Part shown: piece by piece, positions 1 to 51,012 of the stretch
Position numbering within the stretch: the first letter of the stretch is position 1
How the letters are laid out: each line of letters opens with the position of its first letter
Assembly: GCA_035772405.1 (NCBI GenBank)
Contig: JAYKKM010000145.1
Location: 1,145,001 to 1,209,000, forward strand
Direction of reading: 5' to 3'
DNA: 64,000 bases
Source: Chrysogorgia sp. JL179-B06
Taxonomy: Eukaryota > Cnidaria > Anthozoa > Scleralcyonacea > Chrysogorgiidae
The notes under the pieces: generated by a model
What the model was told of the DNA's origin: nothing
The model's input: the letters and a program-made list of their open reading frames with translations, nothing else
Database searches by the model: none
Position numbers and translations under genes: made by a program

Positions 1-660
1 GTTAAGTCAATAATCACTAAGCACAATGCACGCATAGCTAGGAACATCAAACCGCAGGATAGGGACGCTACTAATTGCAGTTGTAGAGAGAACACCATTT
101 GCCCGCTTCAAGAACAATGCATGGACTAGAGACATAGTATACAAAGCAACAGTGTCAGTAAACATCACAAACGAAATAAAACACTACATTGGTATGACTG
201 CAACCACATTCAAAGAGCGATTGGCCAACCACACTAAATCTTTTCAACATAAAAAGCATGAAAATGACACCGAACTTTCGAAATATATTTGGACATTGAA
301 AGAAAACAATAAAGATTTCAGTATTAATTGGCAAATTCTAAAACATTCTATTTCGTACACAGGTGGATCAAAACGATGCAATTTATGTTTAGAAGAAAAA
401 TTTTGTATTTTAAAAGAAAAAAATAAGAATAGTTTACTCAACAAAAGAGCGGAAAATAATTTCACAGTGTCGTCATCGTAATAAATTTCGCGTAAACAAC
501 GCAAACAAAGCCATGACCTCATGCTTTGTCCCCCACATACGCCCCCACTTTCCGGCAGAAAGCCTATAAATAAGCGGTCATCCCTTTCGATATTGTCACT
601 GCCTGAAGATTCTTTTACAGATGAAACAAGTTGTAGCAGACCAGTTTTGAGGTAAGCGAA
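1..660 (+). pseudogene. Penelope-like element, 3' half (copy A)
   Basis: This is the 3' part of a Penelope-like retroelement cut by the window edge. It repeats positions 2368-3030 almost base for base. It covers the Cys-rich linker after the reverse transcriptase (CSCRENTIC at about 78-104) and then a GIY-YIG type endonuclease domain (HYIGMTATTFKERLANH near 182-235, with downstream GGSKRCNLCLEEKFCIL). A stop in the linker (TAG at 127) and a frame change near 450 break the frame, so it is a relic. It lies head-to-tail directly upstream of a longer copy, an arrangement typical of Penelope-like elements, whose terminal repeats come from partial tandem copies. Confidence 0.8.
599..639 (+). ncRNA. 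Hammerhead ribozyme-like motif in PLE terminal repeat (copy A)
   Basis: In order: CTGC (599-602), core CTGAAGA (603-609), a weak stem II, GAAAC (623-627), a tiny helix III formed by ACA/TGT, then GTA (633-635) and GCAG (636-639), which pairs with CTGC to make stem I. This matches a type I hammerhead with minimal helix III, predicted to cleave after 635. Hammerheads are known in Penelope-like elements. The first stem II pair is a U-U mismatch with only TCT/AGA behind it, so activity is uncertain. Confidence 0.55.
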
Positions 661-784
661 AATCTATTATTTGCTCTAACTATATGTTGTTGAGCACTCT
701 TTGCATTTCGTAGACCAAAACCTACACGTATATTTGCACCCGTATATCGGTTGTGCACTCTTGTTTACGTTATTCATTCCTATC

Positions 785-2850: not shown

Positions 2851-2962
2851 TTCGCGTAAACAACGCAAACAAAGCCATGACCTCATGCTTTGTCCCCCAC
2901 ATACGCCCCCACTTTCCGGCAGAAAGCCTATAAATAAGCGGTCATCCCTTTCGATATTGTCA

Positions 2963-3003
2963 CTGCCTGAAGATTCTTTTACAGATGAAACAAGTTGTAG
3001 CAG
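2963..3003 (+). ncRNA. Hammerhead ribozyme-like motif in PLE terminal repeat (copy B)
   Basis: This is identical in layout to the motif at 599-639: CTGC (2963-2966), CTGAAGA (2967-2973), GAAAC, GTA ending at 2999, then GCAG (3000-3003). Two such motifs about 2.36 kb apart in the same orientation would release a unit-length RNA if both cleaved. Confidence 0.55.
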
Positions 3004-3026
3004 ACCAGTTTTGAGGTAAGCGAAAA

Positions 3027-3030
<4 letters not shown>

Positions 3031-3056
<26 letters not shown>
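3031..3056. repeat. (TA)n microsatellite at PLE 3' end
   Basis: An uninterrupted TA run abuts the PLE terminal repeat. The head-to-head PLE ends at 4818-5006 are also bordered by TA runs, which suggests insertion into, or seeding of, (TA)n DNA. Confidence 0.85.
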
Positions 3057-3062
<6 letters not shown>

Positions 3063-7158: not shown

Positions 7159-9710
7159 TCATCTATAGGTGGATCCCCGATCCTGGTCTGTAGCTGGTAG
7201 GTCGGGTAGGTAAGTCAGTGGATCACTGGCATAAAAGGAGGTCAGTTTCGTCAGGACTGATAGTCGTTGGGCGCTTGTCGTTGGGCGCTTCCACCTGATC
7301 CGTTTCACCGCGAGTTCCCCTATCGGGTTTTGGCTGTACTTGGCATAACTTGAGTCTGTTATAGTGGACAATCTGCTTACGTCCTGCACCACCTTCCTGC
7401 TGGATCTTGTACTTGACATCAGAAATCCGGTCGATAACCACAAAGGGGCCCTTCCACGGAGACTGTAACTTTCTGGTCTGCCCTTTCTTTGTAGCAGAAT
7501 TAAACAGCCAAACTCGATCACGGTCGTAGTACTTCTTCTGGCGATGCTGAGCTTTCTTTAGCTGCGCATGAGCAAGTTCGTGAGCTTCGAGACTTTGGCG
7601 GAGATCCTGCACATATTCCAAGGTATCGACCGGTTGGTCAGGAGTACACCCGAACATGATATCTGCTGGTAGACATATTTTGCGCCCAAACATCAGGTGG
7701 TATAAAGGTGAAAACCCAGTTGACTCGTGGACACTGGAACGATATGCCATTACTTTCTGTAGTGAGATATAATGATATATCATTACTTTCGGGAGGTGGA
7801 CATCCCAATCTCTCTGGTTTCTTTCGACATATTTCGAAAGCATCGCCTCTATAGTGTTCGGTTGAAACGCTCGACCATGTCATCTCCCTCCGGATGGTTA
7901 CGCAGATGTCCGAGTTTTCTGTATTCCCAGGAGACGACACATCTCTTGGAACAACGTAGACTCGAAGTTTCGACCCTGATCCATTGGATGACATTCGGTG
8001 CTCGGCAAAACGACAAACAAATTCGTCCACTAACTTCTGTGCCACGGTCTGTGCTTCCTGGTTTGGTAACGCATAACTTTCCGTCCACTTCGAGAGATAG
8101 TCTCCAATAACCATAATGTACTTGTCATGGTTCTGTTTCTGGCAGAGGTCCGAGAATGTCGATAGCTACTCTTTCCAATGGATACCCTGGTTGACAACTG
8201 ACCAGGGGAGCACGAGTTCCTGACTTGGCACTTATCACACTTCCTCAACCAATCTTCAACATCTTGTAGCAGATTTGGCCCGTAGAATCGTTGACGGACT
8301 TTAGCAAGAGTTTTGTCACACCGAGATGACCTGCTGTCGGAGCGTCGTGAAGATCTGTTAAGACTTCGTTGACCAAAGATTGGGGTACGACCAAGAAAGA
8401 CTTCGCCACTATTCCATCCTCATTCTCCCAATGACGATACAGCACGCCTTCTTGAACTTCTAAGGCGTCCCAGTGTGCACATGCAGGTTGTACACTCTTT
8501 GGATGAAACCCTTCAATTCTGACTTTAGTGGTGGTTCAGTTTGAGTTTCTCTCCAACCAAGGACATGGCTAATGACGGGATCAGCCATTTGTTGAGATCT
8601 CAGGTCCGCAGCTGTCCATTTCGAGCACCATGCCCTCTCTGGAACTTTGCTGACTGCGCTTACTACAGGATTTTGGTTAGGTCGGTTGACTCCTTCTGGC
8701 GGCCTTCTGGATAACCCATCTGCATTCCCGTTGCTACTTGGCCCCGGCTCCTTGAAGTTCGAAAGCCGACCGTAGCACACCAAGGCCAGCATCTCTCGTT
8801 TTGTCGTTGAGTAATTCTACTGGCGTATGCAATTACCTTCTCGTCGCCATCTTGAACCTGGGATAACACAGCGCCGATTCCCCTGTCGCTTGCATCTGTA
8901 TCTAGGATAAACTCCAAGTCAAAGCGCGGATACATGTAGCTGAGCACTGGTGCCCGTACGAGACAGGCTTTGAGTTCTCTAAAAGCACTGTCACAAGAAG
9001 GATTCCATACAAAGGTTTTCTCATTCCCGACCGTCAGCGAATGGTGTAGCAGAGTGGCAATAGTCCAAGCAAAACCTCGTTCCGTCTTTCTTCTTTACGA
9101 ACACTAATGGCGACGCCCGGGGACTCGAAGAGGCTGTGACCACGTCGTTGCCGAGCATCGTCTTCAAGTTCTTTTCCATCTCTTCGCGCTGATGGAATGG
9201 GACTCGCCTTGATGACTGCTTGATAGGTGAGGCATTACCGGTTGGTATGCGGTGATGAACTTGGCTAGTCCTCCACAAGTCAGTAGAATCTTTGGCCACG
9301 ACATCGGAAAACTCGCTCAGAAGTTCCTCCAACTGGATCTTTTCTTCTCGGCTGATGTCAGCACCTTCCCAGTTGAACAATTGCGTTAGCTTCGCTTTTG
9401 ATGGAACAGGGACGACTTTACATATACTGTAGGACCTCGGGAGATGTCGATTTTCCACAGGCCTCTTCGTCAAGCTGCGTGAAAGTACCTAGAATAGTGT
9501 TCTGGTACAATACTACAGGTTGTGGAGAAGGGTTTAGTAATCTTACTGGTACCAGGCCATTAGTTGGCTTGGCTACTATTCTGGCCAACATGACTGTATC
9601 CAATAACCGCCTATGAATGAGAGTTACCGCAGAAACCTGTGTCTAAAAGCATGCGTACGCTTGTACGCTGTACGCTCCTAATACCTTGGGTAACCGACAC
9701 ATCCGCTATC
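7159..9710 (-). pseudogene. Ty3/gypsy polyprotein relic, copy 1
   Basis: Reading down the minus strand: aspartic protease fragment (LLDTGSAVTLIHRRLLD near 9600-9680), an RT N-terminal block (SDVVAKDSTDLW, HHRIPTG, PLVFVKKKDGTRFCLDY near 9065-9390), then an abrupt jump to the RNase H/connection block (FILDTDASDRGIGAVLSQ near 8850-8910). The catalytic RT palm with its YVDD-type motif is deleted. An integrase H2C2 region (HLGVTKLL and KCDKCQ, 8210-8340), integrase core pieces in shifted frames (7850-8110) and the C-terminal part (LMFGRKICLPAD, SPWKGPFVVIDRISDVKYKI, 7330-7700) follow. Several frameshifts are present. Gag and the 5' LTR are not recognised. The copy is dead and can move only by segmental duplication. 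Confidence 0.82.
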
Positions 9711-9749
9711 TCGACAGGCGTTTGTTTGGAACTTGTTTCTAGGGTCTAC

Positions 9750-10953
9750 AGTATTATAAAACCATTAGACGGGGGGTTAGAAAACCCATTGGGCGGGGGG
9801 TTAGGGTTAGGATCTAATTATTTTGGGGTTAGCAGTTCCATGGCATGAAGTATTTCATCATACAGGCATGTCCGATCGGATACTAAAAAAGATCGTCCAG
9901 AAGACGACTATGACCTAGTACCTCACGGTCACCTCAACTGCGAGTGTAGCGTGAAAAGTAATGATTTCTCGCGTCGAGCTTAGAAGGACCATTCGCAGTG
10001 TATTATCACACACGCAGTTACAACAGTAACAAGTTAAGTAAAATGTATACAATAATTTGCTTACAATTTTATGTTGGAATCAAAAGTCGCTATATAGGGG
10101 AGCGGTCATTATTTATGGGGTGGTAGTAGCCTGCGTAGGGTGGTAGGGGGTGGGTGATTTTTCAGGCGCAAACTAAAAAGTTCCATAACCCCTCTCTTGA
10201 GCAATTGTTGACCTTGATAACCCCTCCTTCAGACATTGAAAAAAAATCGTAACCCTCCTCATGGAGACTTTAAGTTTAATAATGCTCTTTTTATATATTA
10301 AAAACATAAAATTAAAGTTTTAATATATACTGTACTGCACTTAAAAATAAAGGCAAACCTAAACAATATATACACATTAATATATGACCTCAGTTATTGC
10401 CGAAGGATGACAATGATTATATAACTTAAAAATGTGTTTATTATAAAATCTTTGTCCAATAAACTTTTAATGCTTCTGAGAAAGAAACTAATTCTTTTCC
10501 ATATAATTTAGTGCGTATAGAGCATCAGAACGGTCAATTAAAAATGCCAAATAACGCGTCCGCGTGCACTAATTTATCAAGACACTGCAGACAATTCGCA
10601 GCCCGGTTACAGTTAAAACCATAACTTCAATATGTCTGCAGTTGTCTACAGATCGACTTTTTGAGACTTGATAATACCCTTGTTGTCTGCACCGTCAAAC
10701 TGCAGCGATTACAGTCAATAATTAGATGCACTTTACCTGAGTTTAGTCTCAATTAACTGCACATTCACTGGTAGACAAGAAAAAGTTAAAACGCAGTTAA
10801 ATTGCAGCGCTGTCATTTTCCTGCGTTTCTCACCACGTATAGCGTAACATTGTGAGAAAAGTTTCGAACTCCTCCAATATAATTGTTAATTATTATCCCA
10901 TGCCGGTTAACATTTCAATTGTTACAAACCGTCTTTGTTCTATATGTATACAG
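9750..10953. other. Intergenic DNA of unit 1
   Basis: It holds G-rich runs with GGGTTAGGGTTAGG at about 9799, the inverted 62-bp repeat at 9885-9946, and a CCCCTC-rich block at 10185-10260. No gene was found, and the missing ASZ1 start exon was not found here. Confidence 0.6.
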
Positions 10954-11069
10954 GAGCAGTAAGCACAATGACTTGGAAGAAAAGAAAGATCATAACCAAA
11001 TTGGAGAGGATTTACGTGCAGCCATACTAAAAGGAGATGTCGCATTGGTTGTAAATATTCTAAATCAAG
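10954..11069 (+). CDS. Duplicated ASZ1 exon (upstream copy)
   Basis: This 116-bp exon matches 14462-14577 and carries the same acceptor (TATGTATACAG) and a still valid GT donor (AAG then GTGATC). It encodes the segment with EEKKDHNQIGEDLRAAILKG. The length is not a multiple of three, so splicing both copies into one mRNA would shift the frame. Only one of the two can be used in a productive transcript. The downstream copy has the native intron after it; this one is followed by gypsy DNA. Confidence 0.7.
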
Positions 11070-11074
11070 GTGAT

Positions 11075-12830
11075 CCATTGGATGACATTCGGTGCTCGGC
11101 AAAACGACAAACAAATTCGTCCACTAACTTCTGTGCCACGGTCTGTGCTTCCTGGTTTGGTAACGCATAACTTTCCGTCCACTTCGAGAAATAACCATAA
11201 TGTACTTGTCATGGTTCTGTTTCTGGCAGAGGTCCGAGAATGTCGATAGCTATACTCTTTCCAATGGATACCCTGGTGGACAACTGACCAGGGGAGCACG
11301 AGTTGCTGGCTTGGATCCTTTGCCGGCCTCGCACTTATCACACTTCCTCAACCAATCTTCAACATCTTTTCGCAGATTTGGCCAGTAGAATCGTTGACGG
11401 ACTTTGGCAAGAGTTTTGTGACACCGAGATGACCTGCTGTCGGAGCGTCGTGATGATCTGTTAAGACTTCGTTGACCAAAGATTGGGGTACGACCAACAA
11501 AGACTTCGCCACTATTCCATCCTCATTCTCCCAATGACGATACGCACGCCTTCTTGAACTTCTAAGGCGTCCCAGTGTGCACACAGGTTGTATAGCTCTT
11601 TGGCTGAAACCCTTCAATTCTGACTTTAGTGGTGGTTCAGTTTGAGTTTCTCTCCAACCAAGGACATGGCTAATGACGGGATCAGCCATTTGTTGAGATC
11701 TCAGGTCCGCAGCTGTCCATTTCGAGCACCATGCCCTCTCTGGAACTTTGCTGACTGCGCTTACTACAGGATTTTGGTTAGGTCGGTTGACTCCTTCTGG
11801 CGGCCTTCTGGATAACCCATCTGCATTCCCGTTGCTACTTGGCCCCGGCTCCTTGAAGTTCGAAAGCCGACCGTAGCACACCAAGGCCAGCATCTCTCGT
11901 TTTGTCGTTGAGTAATTCTACTGGCGTATGCAATTACCTTCTCGTCGCCATCTTGAACTTGGGATAACACAGCGCCGATTCCCCTGTCGCTTGCATCTGT
12001 ATCTAGGATAAACTCCAAGTCAAAGCGCGGATACATGTAGCTGAGCACTGGTGCCCGTACGAGACAGGCTTTGAGTTCTCTAAAAGCACTGTCACAAGAA
12101 GGATTCCATACAAAGGTTTTCTCATTCCCGACCGTCAGCGAATGGTGTAGCAGAGTGGCAATAGTCCAAGCAAAACCTCGTTCCGTCTTTCTTCTTTACG
12201 AACACTAATGGCGACGCCCGGGGACTCGAAGAGGCTGTGACCACGTCGTTGCCGAGCATCGTCTTCAAGTTCTTTTCCATCTCTTCGCGCTGATGGAATG
12301 GGACTCGCCTTGATGACTGCTTGATAGGTGAGGCATTACCGGTTGGTATGCGGTGATGAACTTGGCTAGTCCTCCACAAGTCAGTAGAATCTTTGGCCAC
12401 GACATCGGAAAACTCGCTCAGAAGTTCCTCCAACTGGATCTTTTCTTCTCGGCTGATGTCAGCACCTTCCCAGTTGAACAATTGCGTTAGCTTCGCTTTT
12501 GATGGAACAGGGGACGACTTTACATATACTGTAGGACCTCGGGAGATGTCGATTTTCCACAGGCCTCTTCGTCAAGCTGCGTGAAAGTACCTAGAATAGT
12601 GTTCTGGTACAATACTACAGGTTGTGGAGAAGGGTTTAGTAATCTTACTGGTACCAGGCCATTAGTTGGCTTGGCTACTATTCTGGCCAACATGACTGTA
12701 TCCAATAACCGCCTATGAATGAGAGTTACCGCAGAACCTGTGTCTAAAAGCATGCGTACGCTTGTACGCTGTACGCTCCTAATACCTTGGGTAACCGACA
12801 CATCCGCTATCTCGACAGGCGTTTGTTTGG
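11075..12830 (-). pseudogene. Ty3/gypsy polyprotein relic, copy 2 (partial)
   Basis: This is the duplicate of 7977-9710, so it lacks the integrase C-terminal part. It shows protease (LLDTGSAVTLIHRR, 12690-12760), the RT N-terminal block (12165-12480), the same deletion of the RT palm, the RNase H block (11930-12050) and the H2C2 region (11345-11450). The shared palm deletion shows that the element was already dead when the segment duplicated. Confidence 0.82.
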
Positions 12831-12839
12831 AACTTGTTT

Positions 12840-14461
12840 CTAGGGTCTACAGTATTATAAAACCATTAGACGGGGGGTTAGAAAACCCATTGGGCGGGGG
12901 GTTAGGGTTAGGATCTAATTATTTTGGGGTTAGCAGTTCCATGGCATGAAGTATTTCATCATACAGGCATGTCCGATCGGATACTAAAAAAGATCGTCCA
13001 GAAGACGACTATGACCTAGTACCTCACGGTCACCTCAACTGCGAGTGTAGCGTGAAAAGTAATGATTTCTCGCGTCGAGCTTAGAAGGACCATTCGCAGT
13101 GTATTATCACACACGCAGTACAACAGTAACAAGTTAAGTAAAATGTATACAATAATTTGCTTACAATTTTATGTTGGAATCAAAAGTCGCTATATAGGGG
13201 AGCGGTCATTATTTATGGGGTGGTAGTAGCCTGCGTAGGGTGGTAGGGGGTGGGTGATTTTTCAGGCGCAAACTAAAAAGTTCCATAACCCCTCTCTTGA
13301 GCAATTGTTGACCTTGATAACCCCTCCTTCAGACATTGAAAAAAAATCGTAACCCTCCTCATGGAGACTTTAAGTTTAATAATGCTCTTTTTATATATTA
13401 AAAACATAAAATTAAAGTTTTAATATATACTGTACTGCACTTAAAAATAAAGGCAAACCTAAACAATATATACACATTAATATATGACCTCAGTTATTGC
13501 CGAAGGATGACAATGATTATATAACTTAAAAATGTGTTTATTATAAAATGTCAATTATTCATCAATCATCATAACTGTTGAAAGAAATCTCCAACAAGCA
13601 AATTAGTGACTAGCTTGACGGAGAACTATTAAGAAAAGAAGTGCAACTTAGATCAGGCAGACTGCCTACAACCTGGCACACTAGATTTCTGTAAAATTTA
13701 ATATAAAGAGCTCAGATGAAAGTTGATAAATTTAGCATTGTTTATGAACGCAATAGATTATATTTTTCAGTGTACATGTATTTCTCTTATTAAATATCAA
13801 AACTGTTTTTTTAAGACTCGATTGTTTCCGTAACCCCTTGGCCTTCTTCTAGTCAGAAATTAATATAACCCCTCATTCAGCAACCTTTGTAACCCCTCCT
13901 CAAAAACATCCACCCCTAGGAGATTTAGATATACGAAAATTGTTCAATGTCCAAAATCTTTGTCCAATAAACTTTTAATGCTTCTGAGAAAGAAACTAAT
14001 TCTTTTCCATATAATTTAGTGCGTATAGAGCATCAGAACGGTCAATTAAAAATGCCAAATAACGCGTCCGCGTGCACTAATTTATCAAGACACTGCAGAC
14101 AATTCGCAGCCCGGTTACAGTTAAAACCATAACTTCAATATGTCTGCAGTTGTCTACAGATCGACTTTTTGAGACTTGATAATACCCTTGTTGTCTGCAC
14201 CGTCAAACTGCAGCGATTACAGTCAATAATTAGATGCACTTTACCTGAGTTTAGTCTCAATTAACTGCACATTCACTGGTAGACAAGAAAAAGTTAAAAC
14301 ACAGTTAAATTGCAGCGCTGTCATTTTCCTGCGTTTCTCACCACGTATAGCGTAACATTGTGAGAAAAGTTTCGAACTCCTCCAATATAATTGTTAATTA
14401 TTATCCCATGCCGGTTAACATTTCAATTGTTACAAACCGTCTTTGTTCTATATGTATACAG
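12840..14461. other. Intergenic DNA of unit 2
   Basis: It matches 9750-10953 plus a 410-bp stretch (about 13550-13957) missing from unit 1. That stretch ends in more CCCCTCCTC-type sequence like its neighbours, so a deletion from unit 1 is likelier than an insertion here. No gene was seen. Confidence 0.6.
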
Positions 14462-14577: not shown

Positions 14578-17500
14578 GTGAACATTTTAATCTGACCTAG
14601 AGTAAACTCAAACCGCAACTGGTCAACTGGTCATGTGTCAAAATATAAATTCTAGCACTCACAATTTTCCTCAACAACTTCTGCTTGTTATTAGGGTCCT
14701 TAAGGCCCTGATTACATAAAGGTGAGCTTTATGATTAACTGGGCTGGCTCGGTAGACGAGACAAGTTTTCACTTCATATTATATGAGAAGGGCTGGCCTG
14801 CTTACCGGGCTGGTGTAAAACATGGATATGCGCATGCTCGTTGTTTAATAATGTCATCCCGCGTGACCATGGTTGAGCTGCCCTGCTTTACAGTAGTGGC
14901 GGATCCAGGGTTGTTCGAAAGGGGGGCGCATATGAAGAATCAGTACGTTGTGGCATGCCCCCAGAAAAATTTTAATTTCGCAAAGCCCAGAAGTGCTTTC
15001 CCGGCGATTTCTGATAAGAATATTTACGAAATTATGGTACCACGCCGTTGCTAAAAATGCACGATTGCAAAGGGCCATCAAGATTGTGAAACACTTTAAT
15101 ATAAATTCAGAAGTAGAAGTATCTTGGAACCCATATTAAAATATCTATGAGTGCACGCAAACTGGCTTTTGCAATGAAAATTGGATAAGCTACCAAAACA
15201 TTGTGCTTATATAATCGGTCATATAATATTGCGTTTATCACTTCGACTTCTTCGTCTTGACATGGTAAAAAATAGAAAACACTTTGTGTAGAAAACACTT
15301 TGTGGGATTTTAAAGGGGGCGCGCGCCGCCTTCATGAGGCAAGCGGACCATGTTGCCGTGCTTTAATCGTTACTACATGACGCGAGTTGGCCTGCTTTAA
15401 TCGTTATTACATAAGGTGAGCTGGCCTGGTTGCTGGGCTGGCCTGCTTTAATCGTTATTACATGAGGTGAGCTGACCAGGTTGCTGGGCTGGCCTGCTTT
15501 AATCGTTATTACATGAGGTGAGCTGACCAGGTTGCTGGGCTGGCCTGCTTTAATCGTTATTACATGAGGTGAGCTGGCCTGGTTGCCGTGCTGGCCTGCT
15601 TTAATCGTTATTACATAAGGTGAGCTGCATAAGAGACTGGATATAGCATATATTGTTCTGAAATTGAAGCAGGAAGTAGCCCAGGACCACCATATTGGAG
15701 AGATCACCTTTGGAACCTAGGTGACAGAGACTATCTGTCTTTGATTTTTAAGATACCAAAATGAATCAGTTGTCAAAGGTTTTAGCGTACTTTAGAGCAC
15801 AAACTAAACCTCTGTGATAGAAACTGCTCAGCGCAGGTTCTCTTCAAGATGGCCACGATATGTTTTGTCTTCATTTTTTCGCAGCGTCGAACAATGCTCG
15901 ATCCAGTCTTTATGCATATGACTCAGACTAGCCTGTTTAATGAGCCGCAGGCTGTCTCGTGTCATGTAATCAGGGCCTAATGTATTTATGATAATGATGT
16001 GACGTCAACCCAGGAATTTGGCTTTCGTTCCCGTTTCCATACGATAGACTGGTTGAGGATTTGAGTGAAAAAGTTGATAAGATCTCGATCTAGTATAGCA
16101 TTCAGTTATACCATACACGTTTGAATTAGGTTAAATTTCTCTAGCAGCATCAGAATATTGTAGCTATAATAGCTACTCTGTAAATTCGAGGGTAATAACG
16201 TTTATGTATGTACTGTATGTATGTACAGTATATATGTATGTCACACTCATTAGCATTTCAAAAAAACAAACCTTTATACTGTAGAACATTAACGCAAAGA
16301 TCAAATCCTAAATTATTTTTGTATTCAACTATTCACTTCATGTAGAATCTATATCCACGGTTAGTTGACTTCCAAAACACTTCAGTACTGCTAAAATGGT
16401 TATGATGTATGTGAGGTCGCCGTCTTTAAGGATGTCATCGTAGATCTTAAGGTCTTTATAGTAGCACAGTGGTTTGCTTCAATTTTTATTTTTGTCGTTG
16501 CCATCGTTCTTTAGGCATTGCTCCAGACTTTGTCCTAAAGTCGGGCTGGACTGGTCTCATGCATGCAGCAAACTGTGGTCTCCTGGCAACTGTAGCTGTC
16601 TTAACTGAAAGGGGAGCCAATGTTAATTTTCATAAAGGTATTTATTTGACAAGGGCTGTGCCAAAGAAAGTGGATTTGTTTTTGCAATTTCATTCGAAAA
16701 AGAGCATGTGCTTATGATCGTGAAAATGGTTTACTTGACACCCCTCCCTGTAACCTGTGCTTTTGCAAACATAACGCTAAAATAAGATTCCGGTAATTTA
16801 AAGTGGTACTACGATCAAATTTTCACCTATCGATATTTTTACGTATTTATAAAGCAGAGCTGCTAAATATTAGTCGGTCGAAACCGTTTTGCGATTCGAC
16901 GATGGCAAGTATTATTTTTCTGACTCCGAATCTGGAGTTATTATGTCCGCCATTAATCGATCATGCAGGAGCATGAGACCAGCGCAAGGAAGTGACGTCA
17001 GACTCTCAACGCGAAGACTCCACATGGCTAATTCTTCAAGTAAATCCATAGTGATCGAGGTCCTTTTTCAAATTCTTCGAGATACACCGTTACCAAACAG
17101 TTCTTTTTTATATTTGTTGACCTGCCTTGTATTATTTGTTTTAGGTACAATAGTAATGGTGACCTAAATAGTAGTGATCTCAGAGCTCAAAATACTTACT
17201 TCAAAGTACCATTCCGCATTATTTAGTTGTTTTTTTACATCGATGATCACTTTCGACCCTGAAAATTCTATGCTGAAGAAAATCTAAAAAACAGGGGTGA
17301 ATTTTCATCGTAGTGCCACTTTAATAAAAAAAGGTTATTCTGGCAAATTGAACTGGATACATCACGCAATAAAAGTGGGATCATAATGCCTCTGACGTTG
17401 CCTTAATAGAGAGCTTAAGCAAGTGGCGTTCTTGTTTTACGGATGGCAACCGGAAAAGTAGGTAACCCCCCCCCCATCCAGGGACCAAAGGATGCCGCCT

Positions 17501-20500
17501 CATTAGTATTTCAATAGAACAATAGGCAGAACAAAGAGCGTTGCGTACAAAAAGTAATTAGTATTGTTAGTGTGACGAACGCGTGGCGAACGCAGAGCAT
17601 GCCTATTTATTAAATATTCCGTGTGAGGGACGGAAGTAATTACCTCTAAGCCTCTTTCACCTTTACGATCCCTAACCCTAGTCTCGTGTACCTTTGGGAC
17701 CCCCATCCCTGACTTAATTACAAAAAGTTTGTTAGTGTGACGAACGCGTGGCGAACGGAATTACTTAATTAGTATTCAAGGGGCTCTGTGTGTTAAGAAC
17801 GAAAGTAACTAGTATGGTAATCATCGAGTATATAAGCGACAAACAGAGTGAGAGTCAGTACTTTGCCTACAGTGTTTCGCTTGTGGAGTTTGCTGCCTTG
17901 GATAATTGTTTGGTTTGGTTTGGAACGTTTGCTAGAAGCTTTAGAAGAGTATGACTTTTCGAAGAAATAATCCTCGTTTTTCAAAACAAGCAGAGTGGAA
18001 GGATCATGTCCATGTAGACGAAGTCTCCGTAGCTAATTATCAGAAGCTGTTCCCGTTGATTGAGACCATTTTTACCGATGCTTTGATGGGAGAAGTCCAG
18101 AAACTTTGCAAAGAGAAATGTGGCGGTTGTGAGATTGATCATCCCAGTCAAAGACAACATGATTGTTTAATGCTAACAGAAGAAGAACGGTGGAGTCTAT
18201 ACTGTGAAGAGGCCATGGAACGTGAATGAACGTGTTGGGCCGGAATTCAATGAAGCTCTAAGAGTATTGAAACTGCGCAACCATGGAGATACTTTAGATC
18301 ATTTAAGACATTTGAAAAGAACTTCAGAAACAATGTTATACGCATTATGGGATTATTGTCAAAAGATATTGACTCCTGAAACTAAGTGTATTCTAGGTTA
18401 TTTAAGATATTGGCGTGAAATGAATCAGTAAACTATTATTATATCATGTTGCTCAGTAAATTTTGATCATTTTGAATATTAAATACGTTTGCTGATATGT
18501 CACGTGTGTAATTAGTGTTGTCACGAGTCTATATCGAATGCTTTTTCGGTGCTTAAGGGGGGAAAAAAGTATTGCCAAGTGTGGAACTCGAACGCATGAA
18601 TTACAAAATAAGGTTTCTTGGCAGAAAAAGTATAATTGAACGGCTTTACTTCATAGAGAACGACCGAGTGAGGAGTTCGAACGATGATATAAAGCGGACT
18701 AACTAAACTTAACAGCTTGAATAAATTTGTCCACCTGCTCATAGATAAAAGCGTGGGAGCCATTAAGCGTAATTAAAGGTTACATGCAATTCCACAGACA
18801 AAAGAGGGCACACATATTTCGATAAACACATCAAATAAATAGTATACAATATTGAGTTTATGAGATTTTTATTTCAAGTTACAAATAGTGGTTATGATTT
18901 AAGCTCAATCATAATATTATCTCCAGTGCCATCTGTTACAATAGTATACGGACATGCAGTACAAAAAACAATATTGTGTGATATAGTCAAAGGTGATGCT
19001 AAGCCACATAATTTACATTGATGAATATTGTTGTAAAAGTCTTGCCATAAACATTTGGGGCATATAGCTAAATGTACACCAGTCATCTTGCTTTCACAGT
19101 AATTACAAATGTATCGACTCTCATCTTTATCAATGTCATATTGCGAGATTGTTTCTTCCTCTTCTTCTTCTTCTTCCTCGTCATCTTCGTCTTCTTCGTC
19201 GTCATCTTCGGAGTTCTCCGCGGCGCTTCTCTCTTCGCTGCTTTCATATTCCGAATCTGTATCTTCTGTTCCTTCGCGTGCCAGTAATGCAAGTACTTCA
19301 GGATTTTCAATGAGATTCTTATTGACTTTGACTTCTGCAAGCCCTCTCACGAAAACGTTTAGGCCAGGCGGTTTGGGAATGTCGGTATCGTATTCGGATA
19401 CACAATATTCGATCAGATTGACAATATTTGTGTTCGGTATAACTCTACCATTGTAAACGATTTCCCGTTGAGCATTCCATATCAAAATGTCATGTGATAT
19501 AAGCAAACTGTGGAGAAGATTTGAAGCCTTTTCAACATTGTTGTTAAAATGGGATAGTACATGTCGAATGCGTTGATCATTGTAAAAGGGAGATGTTTCT
19601 TCGCTGGTGTCCATGACTTCGACTGACTCTAGTACAATGAACTGATTTCTTTTATACTAATTCTGCAAGTCCTTCTAAAACTGGACCAAGTAACAGACCG
19701 AGAAATCCTCCTCCTCGTTGGACCAGTATTTGTTTCTTTCTCATGAAACTTCTTCCGGGGTCAACTAAAGTACTTATGTCATTTTCGTACGGTCTCACTT
19801 TTTCGATCGTTTCCCGAGGTAATTCGTATTTCATTTTGCAAACATTATGGATACAGTCATGTATACACTTAACTTGTTCGGGGGTAGCTCTCTCAAGAAG
19901 CGCCTGTTGTTCTCCAGAATTCGACAAACAGTAATGTCGAAGAAAAGCTCTCTGCTTCTTGTTAAACATCTCTGTACGATAGCCAACGTATAAATGACGA
20001 GGTCACCCCCTGAAGTACACCTTTTATATTACTCTTTACTCATGGCAAGATAACATAAGGACATAAGGATAAAGATAAAGATAAAGATAAAGATAAGGAT
20101 AAGGATAAGGATAAGGATAAGGATAAGGATAAGGATAAGGATAAGGATAAGGATAAGGATAAGGATAAGCTATATAGGATAAGCTATATAGGATAAGCTA
20201 TATAGGATAAGCTATATAGGATAAGCTATATAGGATAAGGATAAGGATAAGCTATATAGGATAAGGCCATAAGGATAAGGATAAGGCCATAAAGATAAAG
20301 ATAAGGCCATAAAGATAAAGATAAGGCCATACAGATAAAGATAAGGCCATACAGATAAAGATAAGGCCATAAAGATAAGCTATATAGGATAAGGCCATAA
20401 GGATAAGGATAAGGCCATAAAGATAAAGATAAGGATAAGGATAAGGATAAATTCATAGAACATTCCTGAGAAACATCATTTGGCTTCTAGTCTTCACCGA

Positions 20501-23500
20501 GTGAACATGTCATTTGCCTGTGATATATGCGGAAAGAACTTTTCAACCCGAGGTAATCTTCAGCGTCATATCAAGTACGTCCATGGAGGAGGTGACCATT
20601 TTATTTTTAATGCTCAGCCTTCAGTCGTCGGTGGATCTTCCGTTATGAAACATCCTTTTACGTGTATTGTGGCTGGATGTACTCAAAGTGGCAAGACCGT
20701 TTGGGTGAAAAAGCTTTTGGAAAACGCTCAAGCAACCATCAGTCCCCCTCCTGAACGTATCATTTGGTGTTATGGCCAGTGGCAACCTATGTACTTGGAT
20801 ATGATCACAACTATACCAGGCATTGAACTCAATGAAGGAATACATGACGACATTGCCGAAAAGAACTTCTTAGATGTCTCTGAACGCAGCCTCATCGTTC
20901 TCGACGATCTTATGGCTCAGTCAGGGGACGATAAACGTATTGCCGATTTATTCACAAAAGGAAGTCATCATCGGAATCTGTCTGTGATCTATATTGTTCA
21001 AAATATATTTCATCAAGGCAAAGAAACCAGAAATATCAGCCTCAACGCCCACTATATCGTACTGTTCAAATCTCCACGGGACAAGCAACAAATCTCAGTC
21101 TTAGCACGACAAGTTAACCCTGGTCATGTTCAAGAGTTTACGAAAAGTTACGAGGAAGCGACAAAGCGTCCACACGGATATCTCATGCTTGATCTAAAAC
21201 CGACTACCGATGATCAACATCGATTAAAAACGAATGTGCTACCAGATGAAAATACCACTGGTCAACTAGACATGGACCATTATATTCGAAAGCGGTCATA
21301 TGAACAACCACCTATCACCGGTGACCAATATCAACTGAAATCGAACGTGATGCCCTACGAAAATACCGCTGACCAACAAAACCTAAACCGTTATATTCGA
21401 AAGCTATCGTATCAACAATCGCCCATCCTCAACGCTATGTACAACTCGGGTGAACAGATGCATAATATTATACAGACGCCTCAGTTAACACCAGATGTGA
21501 AGAATATACTCTACTCTAATGAGCTTAAACGTTTTCTGTCCTTCCAAAATCAACTCCACGACCAGGTTCCAGTTCAAAATAATCTTCAAACTGAAAGCAA
21601 TATCCCAAAGACTCCAACGCAATATGATTCTACAGAATACCTCCCGTCCGATCCTCACCAGGTTCCTACTACACCTAAAGCCTATTTTTTGACACCACCA
21701 ACTACAGTTTCGACAGAACAACCAAAGCTTAAACGAAACTTCTTTAATAATTGGGAAAGTTCTTCCGATTGGAAAAAGAGCGATTTAGCAAGGATGACCC
21801 CTGAAGAAAGAGGTGAATATGAACACCATCTATCGATGACTAGATCAAAATATTTACCGATGACAGAACAAAATGTGGCAACATTAACGCCTGAAGACCA
21901 GGAAGAATATCGAAAAACTTTTAAAATTAAAACGCCTAGATATTCCCTTAGAAGTAGGCCTTATTAGTATTTATAACTTGAAATAAAAATCTCATAAACT
22001 CAATATTGTATACTATTTATTTGATGTGTTTATCGAAATATGTGTGCCCTCTTTTGTCTGTGGAATTGCATGTAACCTTTAATTACGCTTAATGGCTCCC
22101 ACGCTTTTATCTATGAGAGGTGGACAAATTTATTCAAGCTGTTAAGTTTAGTTAGTCCGCTTTATATCACTGCTTCCCGAAGTGTTTCTTCGACACATGA
22201 ATCGCTTAATCGATAAACGAAGGTTCGATAAGTGATAATTCCCCCGAAATGATTACTATGCTATCAAACATGTTTATCTAAGATCAGGTGGACAAGTTTA
22301 TTCAAGCTGCTAAGTTAGTTATATCCTCGTTCTAACTGAATCCCGTACACTAACGCGAGATAATTAGCGATAATTCGGTCAAATTCATGGATATAATTAG
22401 CGATAATTCGGCCAAATTCATGAACATGTATGCAAATCTTAACCTTAACAACGTGAATATACATCATGACAACGGCGTCATAAAATAGCCGAGTCATCCA
22501 GTTTAACCAAGACGTTTATATTTATATTTTTCAATATGTTTGAGATCTTGAACAGTTCTTCGCACTGTTTCCCCGAAGTGTTTCTTCATCATAGGAATTG
22601 TGTACACTAAAGCGAGATAAGCCATAATACGGCCAAAATTATTAGGGTTCATCTCTTAGCGGTGAAAACGCAGGTTCAATCGAACGCTGAATAGCGTGTA
22701 CGAACGGGCCAAAAGGCCTTATCGGGCCAAAGAAGGCCAGATAGGGCCTAAACGGGCCTAATACACACACAGAGAGCCACCTAAGTACACGATGGGGTCC
22801 CAAAGGTACACGAGACTAGGGTTAGGGATCGTAAAGGTGAAAGAGGCTTAGAGGTAATTACTTCCGTCCCTCACACGGAATATTTAATAAATAGGCATGC
22901 TCTGCGTTCGCCACGCGTTCGTCACACTAACAATACTAATTACTTTTTGTACGCAACGCTCTTTGTTCTGCCTATTGTTCTATTGAAATACTAATGAGGC
23001 GGCATCCTTTGGTCCCTGGATGGGGGGGGTTACCTACTCGGAAATCACGAATGGCATATTTTTAATAAAATTTATCACTAACAAAACAGAGAATGAAGGT
23101 TTGAAATCCTAATGGAGGACTAAAAAGCGTAAAATGCGTTTTTTTCATGAGTCAATATTTAACTTTACAACTGGCCTTTAAAGTGCCTATACAGCCCTTT
23201 CGTTTTTTAGTTATAGAGGATCAAAAAATAGCTGATAAGATATTTTACAGTTTTCGATTTGGACTTTTCGTTTAGAAGATATTTTGCATCCAAATTAAGA
23301 AATGTAAGCAAATTCCGATTAAAAACCGAAAACGTATTTCTGCCAATTCTGGAGTCTGGAAACTAGATTGTGACGTCATTTAAGAGATGAGTCCAGGATC
23401 TTCCCAGCTTCGTGGACAAACGAGCTCGATTCCCAGATTATACTATAAAATTTATCGTTTATGTTGAATCATTCAATCATGCCAGACAGATACGCAGTGT

Positions 23501-26500
23501 ATGGATGTTCTAATAAAGCGAATTTTAAAGAAAAATATCTGTCCATCGTATTCTTTACTTGAACGATACTATACTTGCACGATTCCTTACTTGAACGATA
23601 CGCGGACAGTAAATATGAATATCACATAGAGATCTTGCAGTGTGTTTAATACAGTGTTTACAAGTTCGCCAAGGCAAAACACACAGTCGTCTCTTAAATG
23701 ACGTCACAGTGTGGCTCGTTCCAGGCCTTTCTAATTTGCGGCTTTTTTATATAAATAGCAATGTATAAAGAGTGATATCTTCCAAACGAAAAGTCCAAAT
23801 CAAAAACTGTAAATTAACTTATCAGCTACTTTTTCATCCTCTATACAGATAACTAAAAAAACGAAAAGGCTGTATAGGTACTTTAACTGCTCACGACGTT
23901 CTAGCAGTTGACCAAAATGCACTCAGTGACGTCTGTGTAGAACAAACTATAGAACGTTTACTTTTTAAATTATTCACTTTCTTTGTTTTTCATAAAACAT
24001 TCTATTGAAATAATACGGCGTCCATGGTTCTAGAACGTGACTTGCTTAATGTGTCACTGCCACATTTTCGGGTCACATTTATTTGTTGAAAAATCGATGG
24101 GCTTCGTCCGATAAATTAAAGTGGTTGAATTTTTTGTCTGAAATTAGATGCTACATACGAAATTCAACGCCGCCATTAGTTTTCGTTTGTGACGTCATAA
24201 GTACGACACATGGCACAGTTGACACAGAAAATTCCGTAAATTGGCTGTTAGTACAACTAGTTTGCTTAGAATGGCCAGCAACAGAATACTTTCCTCCATG
24301 ACAACGAGATGAGCCAGTTGAAGATGTAGCCATTTTCTCTGTGTTTGCCACGTGTGTCATACTTATAATGTCATAGCGCCCAATAAAACGACCGGAAAAA
24401 TTCACATTTCGCTATTTCAACCGTTGATAAAATCACTTCTGTTCAACCAAATTTTGTTCTGATAGCAGATTTAAAAATCGGAACGTGCCAATTTTCATTT
24501 GGGGAAATAAAATGGAAACAAAAACTTGGTGGCAGAGGCACTTTAAAGGACATTGGCAACAAAAATTAAGTTTGTCTAATATAGTGTAGGGAAGTGAAAT
24601 AAATAAATAAAAACCCACAATTAAGTGAGAAGATTAATATTTGGTTATATCTCCTCATTTAGATATGTTTTCAGTACTGATGGCTGCATGTTCTTCTGAT
24701 TGTGATGCTGAAGATGACTTGGTACAATGTGTCAACCATTTAATTGAAAAGGGCGCAAAGATTAATGGCCATGATAGGTTCGCATTTCTAGACTATATTT
24801 CGTATATTTATATGGTGTACCACACCCAACTGGTAAATGCGTGTTAATTACAATTGAATGTTTAGATAATCTGTTTCATTATTGTCGACTGCGTACTGCG
24901 CGTCAAAATGACGCGTTCTGTGTCGGGATAAACCTTATTTCAATTTATAACATCAGGCTGGGGAATTCAGTGTAATGAATTTGCAAGTGTAAATAGAAAT
25001 ACAAATGTCTATTGTAGTTTTAGCCTGATTGTTATGAATTGAAATAAGTTTTATGCCAACGCTGCGCAGAACACTTTTTGATGCGCAGTCGACATTACGA
25101 ACTGGCTTATTAACAATGAGGTGGTCCGTGCTATTTCACGTTTGGGGATTTTACATATCCGTAATATTTGGGTCTTCGTGAGCAAAATCATAATATATTT
25201 TGTCAGGTGAAAATTTTATCTTCATGAAGTTTGTCGCTGTCAAAGTTACCGGATGTGATGTCACAAGAGGCATTCCAAACCAGTTTTCTTTTATTACCTG
25301 CCTTTTACTACAAAAATGTCTCTCAAAAAAGGACTAAAAAAGTCCATGAAGATGAAATTTTCACCTGACAAGATATATTATAATTTTGCTCAGGAAGACC
25401 CAAATATTACAAATATGTAAAATCCCCAAACGTGAGATAGGCACTTTAAAAAATAGAAAACATTTTCCGTTATTTCCCCGCAAATTTCCACTCGTGTTTC
25501 TATAAATTTGTATGGAAACACCGAGAAAACGTAGGAATAAGGTTCATTTAAATATTAAAATCCTGAAAATGTAAATTTTCCTCACTGAACGCAAAAAAAC
25601 ATACTTTCAGCTGTCAGATAATGCGACAAGAAATACATAAATGTTGCCTTAAAAAATCATGTGACATTTTTTAAACTTTTTTAAAAATATTTAAAATACC
25701 TTTCGTTTGACTTCACGAATGGCAGGAAAATTTCTATTTTTCTATACAGTTTTAGTATAATTTCAGAGAGAGTTTCTAGCACATTGATTGGTCTAGGCCG
25801 TGACTCTCGCATAATACTCACAGCATAGCGCAGTGACTATAAGCTCTGTACTATGTACTATTTACTATGAGTTCTGAACTATGACTATAAGCTAAACTTT
25901 CAAAATTTCTGACAAAGAAATTGAGAAATTAAAAGAAGATGCGCTCCTACAAAAAACTAAAGATTCAACAAAATATGGAATTACAGTAAGCTCTTTATAG
26001 ATACGCTCTTTACAGATACGCTCTTTATAGATACGCTCTTTACAGATACGCTCTTTATAGATACGCTCTTTACAGATACGCTCTTTATAGATACGCTCTT
26101 TACAGATACGCTCTTTACAGATACGCTCTTTACAGATACGCGCTTTACAGATACGCGCTTTACAGATTCGCTCTTTACAGATAAGCAGCCTTTTGTTCAG
26201 TGAAATATATTTGCCCCAGAAAGAAAGTAAAACCTCCGTTTCTCTTGTGCAAAAACGGAAGTTGTGTTTTTTTCTGATGTTCAACTCTGAACTTTTACCA
26301 AAACAATTAGTCACCTCTAACAATTAGTCTCGGTGGTCATGTAAGAGTTAATTACCTCGAGCGAAGGATGTGTGCTATATACAACCCCGAGGTTCGAGGT
26401 AATTAACTCTTACTTATTTAATAGTTGAGTCGGTTTTCTTTGTTGTCCATAGGGATGTATATATCCAATATATTTATAAGTAATACAATGGTTTTTAAGA

Positions 26501-29500: not shown

Positions 29501-32500
29501 ATGGCATACCATTTCCGCCAAAAATCGAACTTCCCATTTTATACACAAGATAGCTCATATCCTACTAGTAGCTCATATCCTACTAGTAGCTATACAATAA
29601 CTATATAAATATAATGTCGTATATATTGCGCTCTCAATCCATAAACTCTAGTCTTTTAATATTTCCATATTTTTATAGTAGTTCTTCTCGTTATTTTCTC
29701 ACACCTCGCTCTCAACCTCGTACCCAGGGTGTTACCCGTAGCGGAGGTAAGACCCTGGGTACGAGGTTGCCTCGCTCTCTTACTCCATGAGGTCCCAAAC
29801 TGTACTCCTAGTTATATTAACCTATTATTTCACAATACAACAATATATACATGTAACCATACTCATTAATATACTTTTTTTATTATTAAAAATTTTTTAC
29901 GAGGAAAACGTCCGTCACAAGTAGTGATTTTCAGGAAGGTCCTCGAAGTATAACTTGTAACTTTTGTTCACCATTGCAAAGGACATATTACGTGCAGATA
30001 GAATGCGGTTCTATTTTATATTACCTCTAGTGAACCTTCTCATAACGGACACCAATGAGACCAAAATAGCTAAGCCGTTGTGTTCGTTGTTTGGATGATG
30101 TTTCCGTTGTTTAGAGGTTTTTATTTTAAAGTGTTTATGCAGTGAAAAATTCAGTTCGAAATAAACTCTCTTACTTGAAAGAACTATATAGAAATTATAA
30201 AGATTGGCATTTACAACTCTTCCATATCTCACTTTGTTCTTGAGATATTAAGATTTGTTTGATATGTAAATGATCCTCACTGTGACGTCACACTGTATAA
30301 TAACTTACTGAAAAAGCATGTATATCTTTGGCATAGACAGTTTCATAATTTCGTTACATAATCCCAAAGATATACAGGCTTCTTCACTTTGACGTCACAC
30401 TATATAATGACTTATTGAGGACATTTACATATCAAACAAATCTTAATATATCAAAACAAAGTGAAAAGGTGGTAAACTATGGCGTATCATTTCCGCCAAA
30501 AATCGAACTTCCCATTTTATACACAACTTTTCATTTGACATACAATTTTTTGCATTTGACACACAACTTTTCAAATCTCACACTATACATTTCCTATTTG
30601 ACTTACAACTTTGTCAATTTTATATACAACTTCAACTTTTCATATTCGACATTCAAGTTCTTCTTCGACATCCAACCGCAATCCAGTAAAAAATGTATCG
30701 ATCGCAGGCTCGCTTGTGAGGTTACATGTTGGGAATTTTGGAAGGCAAAATGGACGATGACTACAATTATCTTTTGGATGTTGTTCATAGTATCCTTAAC
30801 TCTATTGACCAATTTATCGAATCAGGAGATGCATCAGTAGATTTTCAACCATTGATGTTCAAGATGGATTATACCTTCAGCGTTTAATGGTTAATTTAGA
30901 TCCCGAGTGAAATATGCAAATTATATGTTTTTTCGTGCCTAAAATACAACATGTAAACATAAACTGAATTACAGCTAAATATTTAGTAAGTTAATATATT
31001 CTCTGTACTTACTTGAAGAATTTGAAGATGACGAAGACCCGCTAGTAAATGACGACAAGCGTTCAGCGACTCTTAAAACCATAGTTCTAACCTCGTTTAA
31101 ATCTGCTTGATCCCCCATTTATAAATTTCTCATTCGCTGTCACTGTATAAACCTAGAAGCCAACCTCGCAAGCGAGCCTGCGATCGATACATTTTTTACT
31201 GGATTGCGGTTGGATGTCGAATATGAAAAGTTGTGTTGCAAACGGAGTTGTAAATAAAATTGACAAAGTTGTAAGTCAAATAGGAAATGTATAGTGTGAG
31301 ATTTGAAAAGTTGTGTGTCAAATGCAAAAAATTGTATGTCAAATGAAAAGTTGTGTATAAAATGGGAAGTTCGATTTTTGGCGGAAATGATACGCCATAG
31401 TTTACCACCTTTTCACTTTGTTTTGATATATTAAGATTTGTTTGATATGTAAATGTCCTCAATAAGTCATTATATAGTGTGACGTCAAAGTGAAGAAGCC
31501 TGTATATCTTTGGGATAATGTAACGAAATTATGAAACTGTCTATGCCAAAGATATACATGCTTTTTCAGTAAGTTATTATACAGTGTGACGTCACAGTGA
31601 GGATCATTTACATATCAAACAAATCTTAATATCTCAAGAACAAAGTGAGATATGGAAGAGTTGTAAATGCCAATCTTTATAATTTCTATATAGTTCTTTC
31701 AAGTAAGAGAGTTTATTTCGAACTGAATTTTTCACTGCATAAACACTTTAAAATAAAAACCTCTGAACAACGGAAACATCATCCAAACAACGAACACAAC
31801 GGCTTAGCTATTTTGGTCGTATTGGTGTCCGTTATGAGAAGGTTCACTAGAGGTAATATAAAATAGAACCGCATTCTATCTGCACGTAATATGTCCTTTG
31901 CAATGGTGAACAAAAGTTACAAGTTATACTTCGAGGACCTTCCTGAAAATCACTACTTGTGACGGACGTTTTCCTCGTAAAAGATTTTTAATAATAAAAA
32001 AAGTATATTAATGAGTATGGTTACATGTATATATTGTTGTATTGTGAAATAATAGGTTAATATAACTAGGAGTACAGTTTGGGACCTCATGGAGTAAGAG
32101 AGCGAGGCAACCTCGTACCCAGGGTCTTACCTCCGCTACGGGTAACACCCTGGTAACGAGAAGAACTACTATAAAAATATGGAAATATTAAAAGACTAGA
32201 GTTTATGGATTGAGAGCGCAATATATACGACATATTTATATAGTTATTGTATAGCTACTGGTAGGATATGAGCTATCTCGCAATTTGATTGTATACCATT
32301 CGCTCTCGTCGCATGCAGTGAACTAATAGCCCACTCGGCGCCTCATTGGCTATGACCTCATATACGACTCGAGCTCATGGTATAATTGTTAAATATTTAA
32401 CAGTTATACCATGAGCTCGAGTCGTATATGAGCTCATAGCCAACGATGCGCGAAGCGCCGAGTTGGCTATTAGTTCATATACGACGAGAGCGAATGGTAT

Positions 32501-50724: not shown

Positions 50725-51012
50725 GATTTATGGTGAAGGAAAATTTCGAGTGTTGGAATACACATATTTTAAGACCAAACCGGGACCAGATTCGATCAAA
50801 CTACATGTTGAAAGGATTTATGGTGACTAGGCTCTCGGCAACGGCTTCCGTAGCTCAGTGGTCAGAGCACTGCACTAGCATCGCAGGGTCGCGGGTTCAA
50901 TTCCAGCCGGAAGGCCTTGAAGTTGCATTTTTCGCAACTGGTCCCGGTTTGGTCTTAAAATGTATATGTATTCCAACACTCGAAATTTTCCTTCACCATA
51001 AATCCTTTCAAT
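50725..51012. repeat. Foldback around a tRNA-like sequence
   Basis: Arms of about 65 bp (GGATTTATGGTGAAGGAAAA...TAAGACCAAACCGGGACCAG, 50725-50790) are mirrored at about 50939-51008. The loop holds the tRNA-like sequence 50848-50922. Confidence 0.88.
50848..50922 (+). ncRNA. tRNA-like pseudogene (SINE-type head), anticodon AGC
   Basis: The order is acceptor GGCTTCC, D-arm GCTCAGTGGTCAGAGC, anticodon arm CTGCA-CTAGCAT-CGCAG with AGC (Ala-type), T-arm GCGGG-TTCAATT-CCAGC and a 3' strand GGAAGGC. Each of the acceptor, anticodon and T stems has one mismatch, so it is probably a tRNA-derived SINE head rather than a working tRNA. The A box (TAGCTCAGTGG) and B box (GGTTCAATTCC) are intact enough for Pol III. 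Confidence 0.6.

Follow-up and report, generated by a model that had tools for sequence, protein, structure and literature searches.

A compact Polinton/Maverick element, probably non-autonomous, with a packaging-type ATPase gene in the genome of Chrysogorgia sp. JL179-B06

The window analysed here is a stretch of 64,000 nucleotides from the anthozoan Chrysogorgia sp. JL179-B06 (contig JAYKKM010000145.1; C145:1145001-1209000), within which a Polinton/Maverick-like element of 5,582 bp lies at positions 17457-23038. This element is probably one copy of a compact, mobile, non-autonomous lineage whose integration and replication depend on relatives. Retained in it are genes for a packaging-type ATPase, for a small protein and for a zinc-ribbon protein, together with one gene situated in its terminal repeat, all inside the same 247-bp termini that bound larger members. 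The genome searches were made in the window's own assembly (781 Mb, 522 contigs), and the counts given for all large families are lower bounds.

Structure of the element

A preliminary description, made from the window's letters, had outlined the element as 17451-23044; these bounds include the target-site duplication CGGAAA, which is exact at both flanks, and the element itself lies within them (Table 1). The terminal repeats, described there as near-identical and of about 250 bp, are 247 and 245 bp long, with no substitutions between them and a single 2-bp indel in a run of C. This suggests that the insertion was recent or that the repeats were recently homogenised. A 6-bp duplication and long terminal inverted repeats are among the features by which Polintons are recognised, and the Polinton type and recent movement proposed for the element are upheld.

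From left to right the element holds a frameshifted first gene, the zinc-ribbon gene and a gene for a 105-residue protein (both on the minus strand), a GATAAG microsatellite and, on the plus strand, the ATPase gene. An inner inverted repeat, with copies of 203 and 202 bp that differ by one indel and one substitution, has one copy beside the stop codon of the zinc-ribbon gene and the other beside that of the ATPase gene. A nested element was rejected as the origin of this inner repeat, since no duplication was seen at its ends and it forms part of a 1.43-kb terminal repeat in the copies on C490 and C196. A scan for TATA and initiator (Inr) motifs gave four sites against 0.7 expected, which is a weak signal as up to five were obtained in 200 simulated sequences.

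Compact copies in the genome

Searching the genome with the 250-bp terminal sequence produced 1,222 candidates, and 40 of these were scored (43 rows including three short ones). These 40 termini show 94-100% identity and were grouped as 15 facing pairs and ten single ends, or 25 elements; one facing pair, on C397, lies 30.5 kb apart. Six of the 25 belong to the compact class, namely the window copy, C490 and C196, which were read, and C309:1290719-1296156, C312 and C416, which are known by their coordinates only. Reading C490 and C196 whole showed the same four genes as in the window at 95-100% identity. Both carry the 1,431-bp left-arm stretch of the window copy at each of their ends (99.2% and 98.5% identical to the window, respectively), the two arms being 99.2% identical to each other within C490 and 99.6% within C196.

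Queries with internal parts of the element gave a similar picture. The inner repeat (40 rows from 666 candidates) encloses 3.3-4.1 kb at nine loci besides the window (C297, C289, C244 with two, C224, C196, C159, C490 and C292) and 4.8 and 8.2 kb at two loci, both on C34; the remaining rows are single or further apart. The first gene (40 rows of 95 candidates) occurs as inverted pairs at ten loci, so that a terminal repeat holding this gene is common. The ATPase query (3,448 candidates, 88 scored, 93 rows) found full-length, stop-free genes of 98-100% identity in 28 of the 93 rows, window included. Two further compact loci were read in part: C205, of about 6.3 kb, has a different outer repeat with the terminus AGTAGTGATACC, and C64, of about 5 kb with its right end not located, has an ATPase of 78% identity and the terminus AGTAGGTAACCCC. 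With these included, the compact copies indicate that the compact form is a diversified and recently multiplied lineage.

The 6-bp duplications of the elements are distinct and exact in nine of eleven cases; that of C289 differs by one base, and at C196 the located end falls nine bases short, the flanking letters fitting a match. The preliminary description had named, as support for a mobile lineage, several copies that have one short gene set in common but differ in their 6-bp duplications; such copies are present in the genome (gene sets read whole in C490 and C196). Its refuting case, in which all other copies would be full-length Polintons and the window copy a unique internal deletion, is excluded by the compact copies that the ATPase and inner-repeat queries returned.

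Recombinant arms of the window copy

As judged from its sequence, the window copy is a recombinant of two element classes. Its left 1,431 bp match the terminal repeat of the compact class, and its right 870 bp (22168-23038) are 94-99% identical to an arm found at both ends of C148, of C142 and of the integrase-class elements with ends that were read, six in number; C112 matches this right arm in part only. With arms from different classes, pairing as terminal repeats is confined to the outer 247 bp that these classes share, and a remnant of the original pairing of long terminal repeats accounts for the inner inverted repeat. The exact CGGAAA at both sides argues that the exchange of arms preceded the insertion. 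The window copy would thus have arisen when the right arm of a compact element was swapped for that of another class, followed by recent insertion.

The packaging ATPase

The ATPase open reading frame (ORF) is uninterrupted in the window copy, and its product carries the A32/FtsK-HerA packaging ATPase signature that is a further mark of Polintons and Mavericks. The profile search called for in the preliminary description gave a match to Pox_A32 at 4.8e-6, above the curated cut-off, and also a C2H2 finger; Walker A, Walker B and the family's invariant residues are retained in an alignment of 32 sequences. A database search returned 397 homologues at E <=0.001 among 4,272 candidates; among the 120 matches listed, the named ones are from the coral Oculina patagonica (42-56% identity), which would by itself make a cnidarian host probable.

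A structure model built from the 32-sequence alignment has a mean predicted local distance difference test (pLDDT) value of 68, with most of the core above 80. Against a viral library the model matched giant-virus A32-like packaging ATPases, adenovirus IVa2 and, lower down, Sputnik V3, and against the PDB the top of the list was the genome-packaging NTPase B204 of STIV2 (template modelling, TM, score by target 0.64). A profile search of PDB sequences gave, among the best 60, only zinc-finger-type matches at the N-terminal end. A tandem duplication of 37 residues is common to the window ATPase, P0033 and P0060, and a tree of 88 rows places the window with these two (support 100/91, bootstrap not settled). 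Its end branch there is 0.1 and is absent from the list of unusually long branches. Between the tandem units the ratio of non-synonymous to synonymous substitution rates (dN/dS) is 0.35-0.47, a weak indication on few sites.

The remaining genes of the element

The zinc-ribbon ORF of 240 residues, already described as intact and acidic, is uninterrupted. Its protein has one close relative and also matches the C-terminal end of the predicted protein P0048, behind an ATPase, at 29% over 92 residues; this suggests that both genes travel together elsewhere. The first gene was correctly described as frameshifted, being split in the window into 17951-18229 and a second frame that ends at 18431. Intact relatives are 159-160 residues long, and two of 159 residues match its first half at 72-73% identity and its second half at 72%. 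A structure predicted from two intact relatives had a mean pLDDT of 45 and was not used.

The 105-residue ORF is likewise uninterrupted and, from its sequence and context, looks like a real gene, because there is a 100% identical copy in C490, its codon use is coding-like and a 30% relative adjoins the ATPase in the sister element class. Scored with the element's other genes, its codon use lies above that of 99.9% of 5,000 random strings and of each of the 56 host stretches tested. The genome holds further copies that are identical or nearly so. The preliminary description had called the gene intact and pX-like; the first part holds, while the pX name finds no significant match, with one chance hit in Pfam (E 0.32), none in PHROGs, one chance hit in NCBIfam (0.16) and four in the PDB (0.47 or worse). 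No relatives of the element were found in the viral contigs, genome contigs or phages searched.

Genes for replication, integration and virion formation

No ORF for polymerase B or an RVE integrase is present in the element, nor any further large ORF that might encode an adenovirus-type protease or a capsid protein, and Pfam detected no remnant of these genes in the 10 of 27 stop-to-stop pieces of the non-coding stretches that were tested. The short compact core leaves no room for them. In C490 and C196 tblastn gave no match to two of this genome's polymerases, nor with the integrase, the protease and the 448- and 251-residue proteins of the larger class described below as queries. The preliminary description held that such genes had been lost; no replication, integration or protease gene was indeed found, while loss from one parent is not borne out, the element's genes being 27-36% identical to those of the integrase-bearing class.

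Larger elements with the same termini

The termini also bound other element types, at 94-100% identity and with distinct 6-bp duplications, among them elements that encode an integrase. This integrase class (class B) accounts for eight of the 25 elements: C313, C498, C442, C264, C289, C309:1494531 and C34 were read, C34 without its outer 0.9 kb, and C360 in part. Its members are 9-11 kb long and encode an integrase and a protease-like protein, along with a diverged version of the ATPase set. The integrase matches rve (5.9e-15) and a chromodomain (1.2e-11) in Pfam and is present in all seven elements read, with a broken frame in C309 and one stop in C264; as a genome query it returned 6,644 candidates, and the 113 that were scored yielded 116 rows, of which many are full length and lack stops. 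The protease-like protein shows a weak match to the adenovirus protease (0.0084, below cut-off), and the ATPase matches A32 just above cut-off (4.9e-5). The class B relatives of the small protein and of the zinc-ribbon protein are about 30% and 27% identical, respectively. Two class B proteins, of 448 and 251 residues, have no significant match in Pfam; our guess from their size and place is that they are capsid proteins.

It should also be noted that a gene for a 124-residue protein lies at both ends of six of the seven class B elements read, and at one end of C313; its match to adenovirus E1B 19K (0.015) is below threshold. The start of the integrase gene is repeated opposite the full copy, as part of the long terminal repeat, in the same proportion of elements (six of seven, one end in C313).

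A tblastn search that used two of this genome's polymerases as queries found none in the seven class B elements read. Three of the 25 elements, all read in part, are of a polymerase type: C159, C121:404597 and C452, the last counted here only by its outer 2 kb, which are 98.6% identical to those of C121. C159 is broken, and its left 7.4 kb were read. Its terminus is 99.0% identical over element positions 10-304, and pieces of polymerase B lie 1.2-3.1 kb behind it (PF03175 at 2.6e-12, a second piece at 0.0029 and a third without a hit); beyond them is another polymerase stretch, 55-68% related to a nested kind described below. C121:404597, read to 7.5 kb, has a 97% terminus and, at 6.7 kb, an ORF like the start of that polymerase whose membership of the element is putative. 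These sequences make a polymerase behind a window-type terminus likely. Full-length relatives with matching ends had been expected to identify a helper; the integrase-bearing elements answer to this in part, and polymerase B was located behind a matching terminus only in the broken C159.

A further six elements carry other cargo (C112, C148 and C142, read; C301, C267 and C8, in part), including a GRF zinc-ribbon protein in C112 and C8. The last two were left ungrouped: C397, read in part, with a nested polymerase-like element, and C121:679676, whose placement in the integrase class was withdrawn as the nearest integrase copy is 9.2 kb off and in the wrong orientation.

An element encoding a polymerase-like protein of 1,196 residues, which seemed in C452 to have the termini of the window copy, was rejected as a helper of that kind. 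Its repeats, of 1.15 kb (AGTAGTATAG..), are its own, its duplication is ATTATC and it lies inside another element; no window-type termini occur in the 2.5 kb read beyond its end on C428 and C450. It could still act in trans. All 39 scored copies of its protein (of 5,962 candidates) are stop-free, at 97-100% identity. The protein has a DTDS motif and a sub-threshold match to Endonuclease_7, with no hit to PF03175. It is encoded, for example at C452:2769606-2773193 (L043, L045, L046), by a different Polinton of about 18.5 kb that also holds a thymidine kinase, a BRO-N/VRR-NUC protein, a chromodomain integrase and an A32 ATPase. A third Polinton-like type was observed at C361:1191500-1210500 (L039, L030, L040), with a PF03175 polymerase and, directly after it, a P-loop ATPase-like ORF; its polymerase was rejected as a helper, the flanks of 7.4 and 7.3 kb showing no similarity to the element. 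PF03175 gave 219 matches in this genome from 76 scored of 5,440 candidates.

Interpretation and alternative explanations

In a compact lineage that depends on its relatives, an integrase of the sister class with the shared termini would insert the element in trans, and a polymerase of the family or of another Polinton would copy it. The element's own ATPase, small protein and zinc-ribbon protein would act on its own DNA, which may perhaps be packaged into capsids made by others; that the ATPase biases packaging towards its own element, as the preliminary description proposed, would be a conjecture. Several points weigh against this. Trans-mobilisation is deduced from the shared ends and was not observed, the roles of the three proteins are predicted, and no full-length, intact polymerase-B element is among those read (C159 is broken, and C121:404597 was read to 7.5 kb). 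The ATPase is partial or holds stops in 65 of the 93 rows, so that many copies are decaying, and its broken frame in C490 and C196 shows that not all copies are alive. Moreover, the ratio of non-synonymous to synonymous polymorphism (pN/pS) of the ATPase, 0.11 among four copies, was lowered by the choice of the three comparison copies as top-ranked by protein score. The same ratio is 1.1 for three class B ATPases, on few changes.

The decaying and frameshifted copies would be expected if the element were a passive internal-deletion derivative, that is, if a once autonomous Polinton had given rise to a short form that spread by its termini with the remaining genes as unused passengers. All four genes look like genes of the family, and short forms are known to spread well in other transposon families. 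This explanation is nevertheless considered unlikely, in view of the 28 full-length, stop-free ATPase copies and of the open ATPase frame, only 78% identical, at C64, the one such locus read. The 105-residue gene has a pN/pS of 0.12, on few changes, in loci that were chosen by the ATPase, together with C490 (C205 entered twice, as L034 and L037), and no long element with a window-type ATPase was seen among the sample read. In vertebrate Mavericks, as far as described in the part of PMC8097293 consulted, polymerase and ATPase form one module and integrase, capsid and protease another, so that a single deletion would hardly keep the ATPase while removing the polymerase and the other module; the gene order in this host's autonomous family elements may differ.

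A less probable alternative still is a divided (multipartite) Polinton, in which the types with one set of termini would be segments of one virus-like genome and the window type its ATPase segment. The 247-bp ends that the classes have in common would fit, as would the seven integrase-bearing elements in which tblastn found no polymerase, set beside the polymerase B behind the same terminus in C159. However, the integrase class has an ATPase, a small protein and a zinc-ribbon protein of its own, which makes the window type partly redundant, and the polymerase element may carry the whole gene set, as an ordinary autonomous helper would. It is doubtful that an animal genome here houses a Polinton divided by gene set (ATPase, small protein and zinc ribbon; integrase, protease and putative capsid; polymerase B), at high copy number, with exchange of arms and no self-sufficient type. 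It is very improbable that the window copy owes its mixed arms to an artefact of assembly, a chimeric join of two repeats. Near-identical repeats are hard to assemble, and false stop codons from assembly are cautioned against for endogenous viruses in the portion of PMC10120064 available to us, which could also explain the frameshift; an exact CGGAAA flanking two different arms is not expected of a chance chimera.

If the compact lineage does depend on its relatives, its place in its own virus family looks like that of a parasite. A class that has an open motor gene in 28 copies, and for which the searches found no gene for replication or integration, suggests a dependency network within one virus family in an animal genome. 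A motor kept without capsid genes pays only if capsids are made in trans, and the question whether Polintons form particles thereby becomes testable.

Relation to known systems

It has been suggested that groups of eukaryotic DNA viruses descend from Polintons. Among bacterial satellites, P4 and the phage-inducible chromosomal islands (PICI) redirect packaging through the terminase or the capsid size. The compact element would be analogous to these if, small and equipped with a packaging-related gene, it used the particles of another element. It resembles Polintons and Mavericks (Polintoviruses, adintoviruses) in its AGT.. termini, long terminal repeats, 6-bp duplication and A32-type ATPase, and differs in its length of 5.6 kb and in that no polymerase, integrase or protease was found. 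Intact vertebrate Mavericks are given as 12.7-24.6 kb long, with polymerase, integrase, protease and capsid genes, and their commonest end motif as (AGT)2//(ACT)2, in the consulted part of PMC8097293. Krupovic and colleagues describe, in the section consulted, nine Polintons without capsid genes that also lack the ATPase and protease (PMC4028283), whereas the window element keeps its ATPase. Bellas and colleagues placed cnidarian capsid genes outside the main Polinton group (PMC10120064, excerpt).

Transpovirons are similarly linear, of about 7 kb, with terminal inverted repeats and a supposed dependence on giant viruses; in contrast, the one described in the accessible part of PMC8877843 has a helicase, a putative transposase and a zinc finger, and they occur with mimiviruses and not with animal Polintons. 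Virophages have a packaging ATPase of what the structural model, by its match to Sputnik V3, suggests to be the same fold; according to the same partial source, they differ in encoding capsid and protease and in parasitising giant viruses (PMC8877843). Among the papers listed by a literature search, none dealt in its title or abstract with a satellite of a Polinton, whether or not equipped with an ATPase.

Table 1. Features of the compact element, in window coordinates
Feature	Position	Strand	Remarks
Left target-site duplication CGGAAA	17451..17456	.	
Left terminal inverted repeat, 247 bp, starts AGTAGGTAACCC	17457..17703	+	94-100% identity to 40 scored genome termini
Left arm of compact class, 1,431 bp	17457..18887	+	At both ends in C490 and C196
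First gene, first frame, 92 residues, C-rich motif	17951..18229	+	Frameshifted in window copy
First gene, continuing frame, 67 residues	18228..18431	+	72% to relatives
Inner inverted repeat, left copy	18685..18887	+	Innermost part of the class's long terminal repeat
AATAAA behind zinc-ribbon gene		-	Within left inner-repeat copy
Acidic zinc-ribbon protein, 240 residues (predicted)	18892..19614	-	Four CxxC
Small protein, 105 residues (predicted)	19652..19969	-	Hydrophobic C-terminal end of GGGFLG type
GATAAG-type microsatellite	20063..20450	.	Between divergent genes
A32/FtsK-HerA-type packaging ATPase, 486 residues (predicted)	20507..21967	+	N-terminal C2H2 finger, Walker A GCTQSGKT, Walker B LIVLDDL
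In-frame tandem duplication inside ATPase, 111 nt	21190..21411	+	Common to P0033 and P0060
Inner inverted repeat, right copy	21968..22169	-	Starts directly past ATPase stop codon
Right arm, ~870 bp	22168..23038	-	94-99%; kind seen in integrase-bearing and some other-cargo elements, not in compact class
Right terminal inverted repeat, 245 bp	22794..23038	-	
Right target-site duplication CGGAAA	23039..23044	.	

Other features of the window

Beyond the right end of the element, at a distance of about 170 bp, lies a 634-bp stretch (23212-23845) with inverted ends of 71 bp (92%). A large inverted repeat was observed at 29717-32160; its arms are 915 bp long and 99% identical, and the pairing continues into its 614-bp spacer. 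No target-site duplication was found within 12 bases of it. Near-identical direct duplications occupy 7977-14252 and 1-3062, with spacings of about 3.1-3.5 kb and 2.36 kb; their ORFs appear retroelement-like by eye, and either recent tandem duplication or an assembly effect would account for them. A tandem array of a 69-bp unit in about 95 copies extends over 52127-58685, and as the unit equals 23 codons, frames of more than 1,700 residues are open on both strands. A tRNA-Ala (AGC) gene is located at 50844-50916.

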